A DNA stretch of 29,860 nucleotides from positions 1 through 29,860 of IMG/VR virus record IMGVR_UViG_3300030294_000132; one strand, 5' to 3'. The notes below the pieces were generated by a model that was given only the letters and a program-made list of their open reading frames with translations, ran no database searches and was not told the origin of the DNA. The stretch comes from a virus. Position numbers and translations under genes: made by a program. Within the stretch, counting starts at the first letter, position 1, and each line of letters starts with the position of its first letter. This document shows positions 4,399-29,767 of the stretch, in pieces.

Positions 4399-4946
4399 TA
4401 TTCGTTGCCTCCAATTATATAAGTGCCGTATGTGCTGGAACCATCAAAGTTAATATTGCCGTTCCAGCTATAGCCTAGATAAATCGTGAAACCTAAATGT
4501 GCAGGTTTATATGTGTTTATATCTTCTTTCATTTTTTGGACTGCTACTGCATCCTGTGTAACCGTATAAACATTAAAATAGTAGTGGTCGTTATACTCTT
4601 GAATGTATCCGCTGCCGTAGGTATTTATAATTTTGGTTAAGAAAGCAACTGTACTCATGCCTAAACCACTTAATCGTACTAATATCTGCTTACGACGATA
4701 CTCAATAATCTCGTCTGCGGCTGGTGTTAAATTTAAAACGGACTCATACATACTTAAGCCCCACGTAGCCGTATTAATAAAGAATTGATTAAATATGTCC
4801 TGTAAACCGACACGTATATTTTCATGTTCCAAGCTGCAAGCATCCGCAACGGCTTTAAAGTTTGGATCGGATTGCAAAAACTCTGGAAGGTACTTTGTTA
4901 CATCAACCGTATTTTGCCGCATCCAATCTTTATTAACTGTAGACAT
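4398..4946 (-). CDS. xkdU: baseplate protein, DUF2313 / YmfQ family (XkdU-like)
   Basis: A 182-residue protein between baseplate J and the tail fibre, the fixed place of DUF2313 proteins. The N-terminus (TKYLPEFLQSDPNFKAVADACSLE) and the middle part (LTPAADEIIEYRRKQILVRLSGLGMST) carry the family's typical sequence. These proteins connect the baseplate wedge to the fibre. The ATG overlaps the 3' end of the baseplate J gene by 14 nt, indicating translational coupling. Confidence 0.82.
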   Translation of the reverse strand: MSTVNKDWMRQNTVDVTKYLPEFLQSDPNFKAVADACSLEHENIRVGLQDIFNQFFINTATWGLSMYESVLNLTPAADEIIEYRRKQILVRLSGLGMSTVAFLTKIINTYGSGYIQEYNDHYYFNVYTVTQDAVAVQKMKEDINTYKPAHLGFTIYLGYSWNGNINFDGSSTYGTYIIGGNE

Positions 4947-5985: not shown

Positions 5986-6002
5986 TTGCTTACCTTCCTT
6001 TA

Positions 6003-6042
6003 TTAATATAGCTCCCGCTCTTTTGAGCGGGAGCTATATTAA
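6003..6042 (-). other. intercistronic hairpin, 18-bp perfect stem
   Basis: Arms 6003-6020 and 6025-6042 are perfectly complementary around a 4-nt loop (TTTT on the plus strand). The stop codon of the DUF2634 gene lies within the stem. On the transcribed strand no U-run follows; instead the RBS of baseplate J comes next. It is therefore more likely an mRNA stability or processing element than a standard terminator. Confidence 0.75.
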
Positions 6043-6452
6043 CTTGATACTGTTAAACTGCCATAAATCGTTGTTAGTTCAATTGTAAAATCTAAAACGT
6101 CACTCTCATTGGTAAAAGTGACGTTATCAATACTTTGAATATAGGGGTTTATTAACAAAGATTCATTGATATAACGCTGAACCTCTATGGAAGAATCACC
6201 GTTGTTTGTGGACTTTCCTATAAATTGTTCAAGTTCAATTCCATAGGCATTATCATAAACGCGATATCGCCAACGTTCCGTTTTTAAAACTTTATAAATC
6301 CAAACTTTTAAGGCTTCGTTTTCGGTCACAATTTCATGTTTTCCGCCGATATAGATAAAACAATCCTGTTCAAAATCCCAATTGTATTCCGTGAAAATCG
6401 GTAAAGTTGAAGCTGTTGTACTGTCTGTTGGTCCTGCTACAAAAGGATTCAT
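6039..6452 (-). CDS. xkdS: DUF2634 family baseplate protein (XkdS-like)
   Basis: A 137-residue protein at the XkdS position, between DUF2577 and baseplate J. Its core (YNWDFEQDCFIYIGGKHEIVTENEALKVWIYKVLKTERWRYRVYDNAYGIELEQFIGK) is the DUF2634 pattern, related to gp25-like wedge proteins with a lysozyme-fold relative in other phages. It should be a structural wedge part of the baseplate, not an enzyme. The stop codon lies inside the 6003-6042 hairpin. Confidence 0.85.
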   Translation of the reverse strand: MNPFVAGPTDSTTASTLPIFTEYNWDFEQDCFIYIGGKHEIVTENEALKVWIYKVLKTERWRYRVYDNAYGIELEQFIGKSTNNGDSSIEVQRYINESLLINPYIQSIDNVTFTNESDVLDFTIELTTIYGSLTVSS

Positions 6453-21392: not shown

Positions 21393-21499
21393 TTTTTAAG
21401 TGCCAATCCAATTTTATTTTAATGGAGAAATTCTAAACAAAAAAAGGTGGAGATTTTATATCAGAATTCAAAGTTGATTTTAAGATTGGCACTTAAAAA
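21393..21499. repeat. 16-bp perfect inverted repeat enclosing 75 bp
   Basis: TTTTTAAGTGCCAATC (21393-21408) returns as its exact reverse complement at 21484-21499. The interior has no ORF. It lies in the 230-nt gap between the methyltransferase and HNH genes. It may be a transcriptional hairpin, a protein-binding pair, or the ends of a tiny non-autonomous element. Confidence 0.7.
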
Positions 21500-21578
21500 G
21501 GCAAACCGCCACCCGAAAACAATGAGCGTTAGATTATAAATTGCCTTACACCTTATAGGTCATTTGTGGAGGATTTGT

Positions 21579-26000: not shown

Positions 26001-26537
26001 TTAAAGAAGTAATATTCTGACTATTTTTAGGCAAAAAAATAAGCCCATCCCGATTAAAGGATGGACGCAAAGTTTATTCTTTATTAAATTTTCAGTTTCC
26101 AATAGTGACCGTAAAGCTTCAACATATGTTTTCGGTGTTTTACATTCTTCTGATTGTTTATCAGCGATTTGTTTTTCCATCGATTCAAACGCATCATAAA
26201 ATCTTGATTTCCATTCATCAGCTGCTGCTGATTTAAAACTGGACACAAGCATAAAGAAACCTTTACGATTCATAAGATACTGTTTATAAGAACGATTACT
26301 GCTATCAACATACTGTGATTCGTGAAATAGATCTCCCGAGATCTCGGGAGATCTCACCAGTAACTCCTCAACACTGACGATAACATGATCATGTCTGCGC
26401 CCGAATCGATACGCTACTTGCCGCGAGTTTACTAGGGTTTGACCATCTTGTACCTCTACTAAGTCATCAGTAAGATCGACGCAATTTTGCGTTGATCTCC
26501 CTAATAGCTTCTCAATTTTACTAAACGGAAATATCAC
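26001..26537 (-). CDS. Rha-family phage regulator with an aberrant C-terminus
   Basis: A 178-residue protein with the pRha domain at about 23-122: DLVEVQDGQTLVNSRQVAYRFGRRHDHVIVSVEELL, then YLMNRKGFFMLVSSFKSAAADEWKSRFYDAFESMEKQI. Rha proteins are regulators of early phage genes. After residue about 150 the expected hydrophilic C-terminal domain is replaced by LCVHPLIGMGLFFCLKIVRILLL, which is simply translation through a terminator hairpin and the following U/A-rich sequence. The gene therefore appears C-terminally truncated. The start is GTG 26537, overlapping the primase TGA as GTGA, without a strong RBS; no in-frame ATG is nearer to the domain. Confidence 0.78.
   Translation of the reverse strand: MIFPFSKIEKLLGRSTQNCVDLTDDLVEVQDGQTLVNSRQVAYRFGRRHDHVIVSVEELLVRSPEISGDLFHESQYVDSSNRSYKQYLMNRKGFFMLVSSFKSAAADEWKSRFYDAFESMEKQIADKQSEECKTPKTYVEALRSLLETENLIKNKLCVHPLIGMGLFFCLKIVRILLL
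26035..26066 (-). terminator. rho-independent terminator inside the 3' end of rha
   Basis: CCATCC (26045-26050) pairs with GGATGG (26059-26064); on the transcribed strand TTATTTTTTTG follows. It lies inside the reading frame of the Rha gene, codons about 158-170. Confidence 0.75.
26329..26354. repeat. 26-bp perfect palindrome in rha
   Basis: The 26 nt from 26329 to 26354 equal their own reverse complement: the left half is AGATCTCCCGAGA and the right half is TCTCGGGAGATCT. It starts exactly at codon 62 of rha (RSPEISGDL). It may be an internal operator or an mRNA hairpin. Confidence 0.9.
26474..26497. repeat. near-perfect 24-bp palindrome at the 5' end of rha
   Basis: GATCGACGCAA and TTGCGTTGATC flank TT with one mismatch, near codon 15-21 of rha. 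Together with the palindrome 120 bp downstream it could mark an autoregulatory site. Confidence 0.6.
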
Positions 26538-28324
26538 GCCGTGGCTTGTTGCTTTATGCTATACACCGTACTTAAATAATTTACAGCCTGCACATAAGTA
26601 CAATCGCTTAAGGTCATAACAACATCAATTATGTCGAGCCCTTTGCCTGCACCGTTCCCTACACAGGCACTCGACCCACAATAGTATCTATAACCAGTTT
26701 CGTTAGTATAAATCGTCGCTGATGGGCTGTGGTCATCATGAAGGACACATACAAAACTTGTTGGATTCTCTATTTGTAAAAATTCGGCCAGATTAATTTG
26801 GTGCAAGTATTCATTAATATTATCTACATAGGTAGATGATGATGATCTTTCAAAAGTTTCGGTTGATAAATTTATAATTGATTGTATCCGTTCAGTTTGG
26901 TCTCCCTTTGCTGCTGCTGAAACGACTTTATTATTCGAGACGCGCGCGAGCGCGTTGGGGTATATATTAACATATGATTTAGCGGCCGCTTGTACTTTAT
27001 CTTGGCAAGTATCGAGCATTTTTGCGAAGTCATCTGCGGTATAATCTCTTGCAGCTGCTTGCAAGATTGTTACTGAGTATGGTTCAAGACCTTTATCTTT
27101 TTTACACCACGTTGAACCAGGTAATCGCATAATTCTTGAACAATCTGTGCGCGAACTATTATCAGCAATCATTATGATATCATGCAATCGCATTTGCAAT
27201 TTTTGCCAAGTTGGTTCATCTTCCTTAGAATCCAATTTACTACAAGCAAAGTAAACATGATAGCCATTGCGAGTATCAACGATTGCTGTAGCTGGCAGCA
27301 GATTAATAACTTTCATCATTTCAGTCTTACGTCTTGCTACTTCTTCTAATGAAAAATATTTCTCTTCTTCGTCCTTTCCTGCATCAATATCAATAAACCA
27401 AGAATTAAAGGCCTTTATTTCAGTTTTTTTAGGTTTATATGTCTTCTTTGACTCATTTGACTCATAATTTAAAATGCGATTTACGATAAAATAAGTGTCA
27501 TTATCTAAAGTCATTGGATGAGCAGAATATTTAGTTTTTATTTTATTTTCCTTTTTATCAAAATATATCTCCGGCTGATAAGTTTTAGCTGGCTGACCCT
27601 TTAAAATATATTCATTAAAGATATCTTGCTTTTCTTCTTCTGATTGAATATTATCTTTAAATAAATCTTCAATCAGCATATCGGTTTTTTGGTCTATAAC
27701 AGGCGGTAATGGTGTATCTTCTCCATATTTTTCGATGAATAAAACTTTTTCTAGTTCGTGCACTTGTGCTAACGGTAAAAGTTTGTCGATTGACTCTTTG
27801 AATAGTTTGTAGCATCCCAAAGATATACCTTTTAAGGCCATAGTATATATCGGGCTTATGCAATATCGCTTGCAGGCCTCTTCCTTCCCTGTACTGTTGT
27901 TTTTTATTTTGATCGACATTTCTATAATTACATTTTTGTCGAATAAAGTCTTCATCAGCGCGACTGCTGCTTTAGATGTTTGTGACTGAAAACCCATTAT
28001 ATTATATAGGTCTTTTTTTGTTGATGCAGGTCGTGCACGTTTTTTGTCATGGTTATAAAATATGATCATATTGTCATCATCAATATTTTCCAAAAGAAGG
28101 AATATACGACCTATGGTGGCAGGGTCTCGTCCTGCGACAGTATATATTGTATCATCCTGCTTCGTGGTGCTGGTGTATACCGTCACATGCTTACGCTTGT
28201 ATAATGACTTCGAATAAATCACCTTTTTTTGTGGATCGTAGAATATAGATTGATATGCTCTACTATATCCATCTTGTCCTCCTACCTGCGTTGTCTGTGT
28301 ATCGTTAATCATTATTTCTTTCAT
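26534..28324 (-). CDS. replication protein: wHTH-like N-terminus, AEP primase, CHC2 zinc finger
   Basis: A 596-residue protein. The ATG at 28324 is preferred, with GAGAGG upstream. The N-terminal region (about 1-200; STKKDLYNIMGFQSQTSKAAVALMKTLFDKNVII) resembles a winged-helix Rep-type domain. Residues about 305-405 have archaeo-eukaryotic primase features: WFIDID (acidic motif 310-314), DTRNGYHVYF (351-359) and SRIMRLPGS (397-404). The C-terminus has a CHC2-like zinc site: C526-x2-H529 with C549 and C554, inside CVLHDDHSPSATIY and YRYYCGSSACVGN. The order (primase core, then zinc finger) is opposite to DnaG. It probably starts or primes phage DNA replication; a helicase is not encoded nearby. 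Confidence 0.8.
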   Translation of the reverse strand: MKEIMINDTQTTQVGGQDGYSRAYQSIFYDPQKKVIYSKSLYKRKHVTVYTSTTKQDDTIYTVAGRDPATIGRIFLLLENIDDDNMIIFYNHDKKRARPASTKKDLYNIMGFQSQTSKAAVALMKTLFDKNVIIEMSIKIKNNSTGKEEACKRYCISPIYTMALKGISLGCYKLFKESIDKLLPLAQVHELEKVLFIEKYGEDTPLPPVIDQKTDMLIEDLFKDNIQSEEEKQDIFNEYILKGQPAKTYQPEIYFDKKENKIKTKYSAHPMTLDNDTYFIVNRILNYESNESKKTYKPKKTEIKAFNSWFIDIDAGKDEEEKYFSLEEVARRKTEMMKVINLLPATAIVDTRNGYHVYFACSKLDSKEDEPTWQKLQMRLHDIIMIADNSSRTDCSRIMRLPGSTWCKKDKGLEPYSVTILQAAARDYTADDFAKMLDTCQDKVQAAAKSYVNIYPNALARVSNNKVVSAAAKGDQTERIQSIINLSTETFERSSSSTYVDNINEYLHQINLAEFLQIENPTSFVCVLHDDHSPSATIYTNETGYRYYCGSSACVGNGAGKGLDIIDVVMTLSDCTYVQAVNYLSTVYSIKQQATA

Positions 28325-28394
28325 TATAAACATCATCCTCTCAATTAAGTACACTAATATATTACAAGTCATACTCTATTTTTACACTTTTATG

Positions 28395-28443
28395 CTATTC
28401 TATGGAATAGTTGTACCCCATATAAATCTATTCTGTGGAATAG
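28395..28443. promoter_or_regulatory. two phased 16-bp operator-like palindromes
   Basis: CTATTCTATGGAATAG (28395-28410) and CTATTCTGTGGAATAG (28428-28443) are near-identical palindromes (arms CTATTC/GAATAG) 33 bp apart, about three helical turns. They lie 70-120 bp upstream of the primase start. They fit binding sites for a dimeric repressor or Rep protein. Confidence 0.7.
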
Positions 28444-28509: not shown

Positions 28510-28674
28510 TATATATAATATCTTTTATTTATTTTTTAGTTTTAACCCGTATGATTAATAATCATTATCACATCAAAGAATAGAAAAGATAATAACTTCG
28601 CATCACCGCCAAGCGGCGACACTCCGTTAGAAAGAACGGCTTCGCATGGATCGCTGGCGCGACCACACTACGCT

Positions 28675-28765
28675 AAAAGCCCCAAGGTTCTTTTTTTTTG
28701 GTATTACATTATTTAAATATAAAAGAGCTCCAGATTTTAATAAAAAACAACCTCGGGGATTTTCG
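28675..28765. repeat. long imperfect inverted repeat with A/T tracts
   Basis: Segment 28675-28702 and the reverse complement of 28738-28765 agree at about 22 of 28 positions, including CCCC, AGGTT and a T6 tract. The ~35-nt spacer is AT-rich. On the minus strand this gives a strong stem ending in CTTTT. Confidence 0.6.
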
Positions 28766-29058
28766 TCCTTGCGGAACAGCGGCCGCTTTAGCGGATGATG
28801 TGAAGCATTGGTATATTTTCGTAAAAGAACTTATATATCCACCATACACTTTTCGTTCTCATCAAGTCAATTATCCGAATAATCTGTTTTTAAAGCTTTA
28901 GAATGACATGGTCGCGATAGCGATCCATGGAATCAGATTTATACAGGTGCGTCACCAGCGCCCCGAATTGATCAATACAGCTAAGTTTACATACCTGCGA
29001 TAAAAAACCAGCACAGGCAAATCTGATACGTTTAAATTACAAATTTAAGCCTTCACGC

Positions 29059-29100
29059 TAAAAAAGCCGCTACTAACACCATTAAGATGCAGCAACGGCT
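29059..29100 (-). terminator. rho-independent terminator for the right-end membrane protein gene
   Basis: AGCCGTTGCT (minus strand, 29100-29091) pairs with AGTAGCGGCT (29074-29065) over 10 bp with two G-U wobbles and can extend; TTTTTT follows. It starts within five nt of the stop at 29105. Confidence 0.85.
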
Positions 29101-29104
29101 AATA

Positions 29105-29767
29105 TTATATGTTTTTAAAATCAAGATATGGCATAAATACTTTTTTAGCAATATTGATTTCTCTTTCTAATCCCACCAGTTTATTAAAAATATCAGTATC
29201 GAGAACCAGTGGAGGTAGTTCTTCTGTAGGTATGTCATTGATTTTTTGAATCACTAACGATTCAAAAATCTCAACATCTTTTTTTATATATTTTATATAA
29301 TCTAATACATCTTCATTAAATAAAAATTCTTTTTTAGATGTTTCTTTTTCATAATCACAAAATAATTTTCCAACTTCTTCGATATATTGCTTCATATCTT
29401 TTAACCTAGTATTCTGTTCCATTGGCAGCACAGATTTTTTTGTAGGTAATTGGGTATAGTGTGAAATAACATCTAACAATTTAATTGTTTGCAGATAAAT
29501 TTCATAACGAGTTTCGTACAAAACAAGATTCACTTGTTTTTGCATCAATTCATTTTGTCGTTGAGTCAGTTTGTTCTGTCGTATACCTAGCCATACCATT
29601 ATGCCTAATGTAATTACGGCCGCCCCAGCCTGCACCAGCGTTCCATACGTAGCCCATGACGTTAGAGATTCATTATTTGAACTTGCTACAGTTTCAGCTG
29701 ACCCAGTAGCCAAATAGTAAATAATAATGAGTGCAATTATTAAAACACAAAAAGCTTTTCCATACAT
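29105..29767 (-). CDS. two-TM membrane protein with coiled coil, unknown function
   Basis: A 220-residue protein from the ATG at 29767, preferred because AAGGA lies eight nt upstream; the frame is open to a TTG at 29839 without an RBS. It has a membrane helix at about 5-20 (AFCVLIIALIIIYYLA), a short loop, a second helix at about 43-63 (GAAVITLGIMVWLGI), then a Gln/Asn-rich coiled coil (RQNKLTQRQNELMQKQ) and a roughly 120-residue helical soluble domain. This hairpin-plus-coil design is common among phage-exclusion and abortive-infection candidates, but no family is recognised. It has its own terminator and is separated from the replication gene by the gene-free region, so it may be a lysogenic conversion gene or a host gene. 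Confidence 0.7.
   Translation of the reverse strand: MYGKAFCVLIIALIIIYYLATGSAETVASSNNESLTSWATYGTLVQAGAAVITLGIMVWLGIRQNKLTQRQNELMQKQVNLVLYETRYEIYLQTIKLLDVISHYTQLPTKKSVLPMEQNTRLKDMKQYIEEVGKLFCDYEKETSKKEFLFNEDVLDYIKYIKKDVEIFESLVIQKINDIPTEELPPLVLDTDIFNKLVGLEREINIAKKVFMPYLDFKNI

Follow-up and report, generated by a model that had tools for sequence, protein, structure and literature searches.

What is the function of the structured, non-coding island at positions 28590-28935 of a viral genome, upstream of a gene for a putative primase? The window, meaning the whole stretch of 29,860 bases that was analysed, is an IMG/VR virus record (IMGVR_UViG_3300030294_000132), and such records may be fragments. 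A preliminary description of the island had listed several short hairpins, a pair of inverted near-copies and a long inverted repeat, had offered an origin, a structured RNA, a Rep-controlling RNA or the remnant of a mobile element as its possible nature, and had matched it to no known class.

Architecture and folding of the island

All of the named hairpins, the inverted near-copies and the long inverted repeat could be located in the island (Table 1). They are not independent of one another: together they form one nested inverted repeat (28596-28807) accompanied by a single outlying hairpin. Folding places the outer arms u1 and u3 outermost, then the units around u2, and innermost a 25-nt central stem, the arms of which are 84% complementary, with a 39-nt loop. 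The partner of u1 in the predicted folds is 28776-28807, and the alignment scores of u1 with u3 and of the u2 arm with the u3 arm exceed those of all 500 shuffles. The window contains the pattern CTTCGCATN{10,30}ACACT at two places (in u1 and at 28640) versus 0.03 expected occurrences, and the near-copy pair formed by u2 and u4 has no third match in the window at up to three mismatches (0.00 expected). Between the island and rep there is a gap of about 220 nt, which includes a pair of palindromes.

Table 1. Coordinates of the island, its neighbours and the corresponding palindromes of two related genomes
Feature	Position	Strand	Description
rep gene	26534..28372	-	left of the island
two palindromes CTATTC-n4-GAATAG	28395..28443 (at 28395 and 28428)		33 nt apart; probable rep promoter
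u1	28596..28623	+	outer unit, CTTCGCAT-hairpin (CGCC..GGCG)-ACACT; left outer arm of the large inverted repeat
hairpin CGCCAAGCGGCG	28607-28618		CGCC..GGCG, within u1
small hairpin CCGTTAGAAAGAACGG	28624..28639	+	CCGTT-AGAAAG-AACGG; right half includes GAACGG
u2	28640..28669	+	bulged hairpin, CTTCGCAT-TGG.A.TCGC-TGGC-GCGACCA-CACT
near-copy ATGGATCGCTGGCGCGACCA	28646-28665		paired with TGGTCGCGATAGCGATCCA
central stem, left arm AAAAGCCCCAAGGTTCTTTTTTTTT	28675..28699	+	long inverted repeat, 25 nt
central loop	28700..28738		AT-rich, 39 nt; sequence not kept in L004 or pSRC5
central stem, right arm AAAATCCCCGAGGTTGTTTTTTATT	28739..28763	-	read on the - strand
u3, CTTCACATCATCCGCTAAAGCGG...	28765..28807	-	inverted counterpart of u1; right outer arm
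hairpin CCGC-TTTA-GCGG	28783-28794
near-copy TGGTCGCGATAGCGATCCA	28909-28927		paired with ATGGATCGCTGGCGCGACCA
u4	28909..28929	-	outlying hairpin; inverted near-copy of u2, 90% over 21 nt
L004 palindromes TGTCCAG/TGTTCAG-n4-CTGGACA	2485-2534
pSRC5 (L079) palindromes TGTTCAG-n3-CTGAACA	4522-4571

The island had been called locally GC-rich, which applies to its core (55% G+C at 28590-28690 and 49% at 28740-28810), but not to 28811-28935, where the 34% measured compares with 36% overall. That the island is structured was borne out by folding on both strands: as DNA, 28590-28815 gave z-scores of -5.0 (- strand) and -4.1 (+ strand), with none of 200 shuffles as good, and as RNA, 28585-28940 gave -4.9 on the - strand, which is the rep-sense strand, and -3.8 on the + strand. 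No other 200-nt window of the contig folds with a lower energy than the island, although in this coarse scan a few windows had lower z-scores. Its inverted-repeat score of 15.0, which ranks third in the window, was not reached in any of four whole-window shuffles (maxima 12-13.5). The second strongest inverted repeat, AAGTGCCAATC...GATTGGCACTT, lies at 21395-21500 between genes for an HNH endonuclease and a DNA methylase, and the window's strongest hairpin by shuffled-fold score, at 6001-6200 between phage tail genes, is probably a terminator.

A coding function was rejected, in keeping with the earlier view of the island as non-coding: its only open reading frame of at least 60 aa (28698-28901, 67 aa, TTG start) matched nothing in PHROGs and spans the freely varying loop and arm. 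No Rfam family matched the island at its gathering score, the one match obtained being at chance level (E 0.46). GC skew, which had been proposed as a check, gave no origin signal and was uninformative.

The Rep protein and the genome that carries it

Translation of rep more likely starts near 28324 (MKEIMIND, behind GAGAGG), as read from the sequence, than at 28372. The predicted protein has a putative N-terminal winged-helix region, an AEP/PrimPol catalytic domain and a C-terminal CHC2-like zinc region. Four Rep homologues share DID (328-330), TRNG[YF]H (H372) and R413/R416, the expected AEP motifs I, II and IV. Matches to protein families include PF16793 (RepB_primase) for the L004 homologue (E 5.8e-5, just below the curated cut-off) and phrog_2478 (DNA polymerase/primase) for the L078 homologue (E 1.6e-8); the window Rep itself matches unnamed PHROGs families. 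A tblastn search gave a match to pXZ1, a plasmid of Sulfolobus (E 1e-4). Since AF2 modelled full-length Rep poorly, fold matching was restricted to the catalytic domain, modelled with the L078 homologue as lead sequence (pLDDT 73, pTM 0.76, a single good model among five). It matched the PrimPol of cyanophage S-2L (6zp9, E 6.7e-6), the CRISPR-associated Prim-Pol CAPP (E about 1e-4) and, at rank 8, RepB' of RSF1010 (3h20, E 0.016). Because the TM-scores were modest (0.36-0.47 by query length), assignment to the archaeo-eukaryotic primases (AEP/PrimPol) rests on motifs, families and fold together, the family evidence being weak but consistent. The earlier naming of the gene as a primase was thus right in substance, although the protein appears to be of the AEP/PrimPol rather than the DnaG kind.

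No helicase family was detected by Pfam, up to E 10, in the Rep proteins of the window, L004, pSRC5 or L078; a match of the L078 protein to phrog_36873, labelled 'DNA helicase' (E 7.6e-4), covers the AEP region only. Unwinding must therefore come from elsewhere. In the N-terminal region, residues 84-157 were modelled at low confidence (pLDDT about 60-70) as helix-strand-strand-helix-helix-strand. The C-terminal zinc region (window 26538-26903) is nearly identical to those of L004 (4385-4023) and L003, and the remainder of Rep is only about 45% identical between the same phages, which suggests a recent exchange of the zinc region.

The window also encodes a contractile-tail phage module (terminase, portal, prohead protease, capsid, tail sheath, tape measure and baseplate J). 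Because the nearest named relative of its rep gene is that of pSRC5, a circular 35-kb plasmid of Selenomonas ruminantium that possesses ParA and a complete virion module (tail sheath, baseplate J), the window phage is probably a phage-plasmid, that is, a temperate phage kept as an episome, of a Negativicutes host. In the set of window proteins that was scanned, neither ParA nor a recombinase was identified; the window is possibly incomplete. The whole record of pSRC5 is annotated as a plasmid only and looks like a complete phage-plasmid.

Conservation of the element beside rep

The search for relatives in viral contigs used the Rep protein, alignments of Rep, and patterns of the units, both exact and degenerate. 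The only true relatives were L004 (IMG/VR contig 3300028909_000075), pSRC5, L078 and L003, the last of which ends inside rep. Most unit-pattern matches in viral contigs were chance matches in coding DNA, and a DNA similarity search in phages and plasmids gave nothing useful.

The Rep protein of L004 is approximately 50% identical to that of the window, and L004 carries u2 and the central stem at the same place relative to rep (78% over 67 nt). Units u1 and u4 are absent from L004, and no u3 was recognised there. Across the central stem and the u2 hairpin of these two sequences, the only ones from which covariation was assessed, 19 pairs are unchanged and four are doubly compensated: 28677-28761 (AT in the window, GC in L004), 28678-28760 (AT, TA), 28683-28755 (CG, TA) and 28651-28662 (TA, CG), the last of which lies in the u2 hairpin (T51-A62 to C-G). 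Two mismatches have turned into pairs, and the four one-sided breaks all fall in the T/A tract. A permutation test gave p 0.005 for the four double changes and 0.06 for the total number of paired positions. At 28684/28754, A-C in one genome versus G-T in the other is in each case an allowed pair on one strand. The covariance check proposed for the island across relatives thus came out in favour of conserved pairing, as far as two sequences can tell. An outer stem around u2 (GGCTT/AAGCC), also considered, was dropped when it proved not to be kept column by column in L004.

In pSRC5, the Rep protein of which is 28% identical, a version of the element lies at 4688-4780, upstream of rep, with GAACGG, a GC-rich hairpin and CCAAAGGT...ACCTTTGG. 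This segment folds with a z-score of -4.2, versus -1.3 to -1.8 for the element of L004, which is weak overall, and it gave no clean MAFFT alignment to the window and L004. GAACGG is common to all three genomes; the CCGTT half of its hairpin is absent from L004. A composite motif, GAACGG within 60 nt of CCnnAGGT-n{15,70}-ACCTnnGG, occurs at only three sites in the 777 kb searched, all of them upstream of rep (window, L004, pSRC5), and in none of 5000 shuffles of each of the three regions, a count that overstates certainty somewhat because the motif was defined after the three loci had been inspected. Its inverted-repeat half alone was found elsewhere in only one unrelated contig. The identical genomic position upstream of rep is independent support for a shared element. 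In L078, a more distant homologue, the DNA upstream of rep is structured but lacks the composite motif.

A pair of palindromes of 16-20 nt each, 32-33 nt apart, is found near rep in all three genomes, similar in form and different in sequence. Relative to the element, the pair is placed towards rep in the window and L004, and away from rep in pSRC5. These palindromes look like operators or a minimal iteron-like pair that may have diverged together with the binding protein.

In L004, a 65-nt direct repeat (2124-2188 and 2336-2400, 89% identical, 212 nt apart) is a local duplication beside the element, and one of its copies ends at the conserved GAACGG unit. An inverted repeat that resembles a terminator, AGCCGCTA...CAACGGCT, is 88% conserved between the window (29060-29122) and L004 (135-73); in L004 it is separated from the rep region by an unrelated, oppositely oriented gene (135-1058), and the repeat may act both ways. 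L078 is a phage contig in which the homologous PrimPol Rep is followed by terminase-like genes, with a ribbon-helix-helix-like open reading frame upstream of rep.

Candidate functions and comparison with known origins

Among the functions first suggested, that of an origin is best supported, because in three genomes the element adjoins a rep gene of the PrimPol type, and because compensatory change has preserved its pairing on both strands. By analogy with known AEP replicons, in which a compact element likewise adjoins the primase gene, this symmetric, pairing-conserved island probably, though far from certainly, serves a phage-plasmid as a cis-acting stem-loop origin of replication, similar to that of pRN1 or to the ssi sites of RSF1010, with the adjacent PrimPol-type Rep as its initiator. 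Rep would be brought to the region by its own DNA-binding region or by a partner at the paired palindromes; supercoiling or unwinding would extrude the nested inverted repeat as hairpins; the AEP domain would recognise the single-stranded hairpins and lay a primer on each strand; and the primers would be extended by the host replisome or by Rep's own polymerase. In the window, the natural candidates for the priming sites are u1 and u3, one on each strand; because L004 lacks both, the central stem is more likely to be the common core. Against an origin stand the weak fold and missing units of L004, the swapped order of palindromes and element in pSRC5, the lack of a GC-skew signal, the lack of a helicase domain in Rep and the absence of the composite motif from L078.

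The alternative is a structured RNA that controls rep, either as the 5' leader of a long rep mRNA (- strand) that acts as an attenuator, which would suit the position upstream of rep, or as a + strand counter-transcript that sets copy number. The better RNA fold of the rep-sense strand and a promoter-like site on the - strand (28870-28841) agree with such an RNA, but promoter-like sites are not in excess (5 versus 4.4 in shuffles), no terminator-like site was found in the island search, and the island matches no Rfam family. Furthermore, about 220 nt including the palindrome pair intervene before rep, the A-C versus G-T exchange shows pairs to be maintained without strand preference, and the symmetric arrangement of units is not needed by an RNA. 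Control of rep by such an RNA is the main rival of an origin, although an unlikely one.

Still less probable is that the island serves an episome as a cis-acting DNA site of another kind, for example as a centromere for partition, as a site for dimer resolution or a recombinase, or as a cluster of repressor operators. In favour of such a site, the arrangement is dyad-symmetric with spaced inverted arms, symmetry of binding would likewise yield paired changes in both arms, and pSRC5 has ParA with a nearby partner gene. However, the constant neighbour of the element is rep rather than par, the scanned window proteins include no recombinase or ParA, and the bulged, looped u2 hairpin is unlike simple protein operators. 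A mobile-element remnant, MITE-like copy or captured host repeat (REP-like) is very improbable in spite of the GC-rich hairpins in inverted pairs, which resemble BIME/REP or MITE structure, and the near-identity of u2 and u4, because there are no further copies in the window, no exact match in viral contigs and no target-site duplication visible at either island edge, and because the element is kept at the same locus in relatives with Rep about 50% or less identical.

The origins of AEP-primase replicons are poorly known in bacteria, and pRN1 and RSF1010 are the models described in the literature consulted. The statement that the island belongs to no known class holds with respect to Rfam, but AEP replicons are already known to have origins of the stem-loop kind. 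Plasmid pRN1 of Sulfolobus islandicus has an essential 100-bp stem-loop with a 58-bp loop beside its PrimPol gene, in which structure is kept while sequence changes, and a similar stem-loop origin was also proposed for Bordetella phage BIP-1; the pRN1 papers disagree on the need for a GTG in the loop, and the site at which synthesis starts was not shown by their authors (PMC4234260, PMC3869888). The island resembles pRN1 in the adjoining AEP/PrimPol gene, a stem-loop of about 100 nt (89 nt with a 39-nt loop for the central stem-loop), the keeping of structure over sequence, the large loop and the lack of a classical iteron array. In contrast, the element is upstream (5') of rep in the window, L004 and pSRC5 and downstream (3') in pRN1; the pRN1 Rep has an SF3 helicase and a C-terminal winged helix, whereas no helicase domain was found in the window Rep; the loop at 28700-28738 contains neither GTG nor CAC, whereas the pRN1 loop has GTG; and the island has flanking inverted hairpin units.

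In the oriV of RSF1010 (IncQ), RepB' primes at two 40-nt hairpin sites, ssiA and ssiB, one per strand (PMC4434180). In the window, u1 and u3 could be counterparts of these sites, as hairpins that face each other on opposite strands beside an AEP primase gene, an opposed pair that was not found in L004. Rep resembles RepB' through its weak match to PF16793 and its fold match to 3h20. However, RSF1010 has a separate RepA helicase and RepC iteron binder. The RepB' family is characterized by Gln in motif II (PMC5862659), whereas the four homologues have an invariant His372 at this position, and the PF16793 match is below the cut-off. Membership of the island in either the pRN1 type or the RSF1010 type is therefore not proven. 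A tentative proposal, which we consider possible rather than likely, is that the element represents a distinct class of phage-plasmid origin in Negativicutes, in which an upstream palindrome pair and a nested hairpin array would be served by a helicase-less wHTH-PrimPol-zinc initiator, a single protein that recognises the folded origin and primes both strands.

A third comparison is with pSRC5, for the origin of which no study was found in the literature searched. Its central stem is shorter than that of the window (a perfect 10 bp with a 24-nt loop), an extra gene lies between element and rep, and the order of palindromes and element is swapped; it shares with the window a homologous Rep, a similar virion module, the composite motif upstream of rep and the spacing of the palindromes. 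The phage-plasmid family that possesses the element thus includes an isolate-borne plasmid, a group of gut Negativicutes phages may persist as plasmids, and the conserved, compact stem-loop beside a PrimPol initiator offers a bacterial system for direct tests of hairpin recognition and priming.
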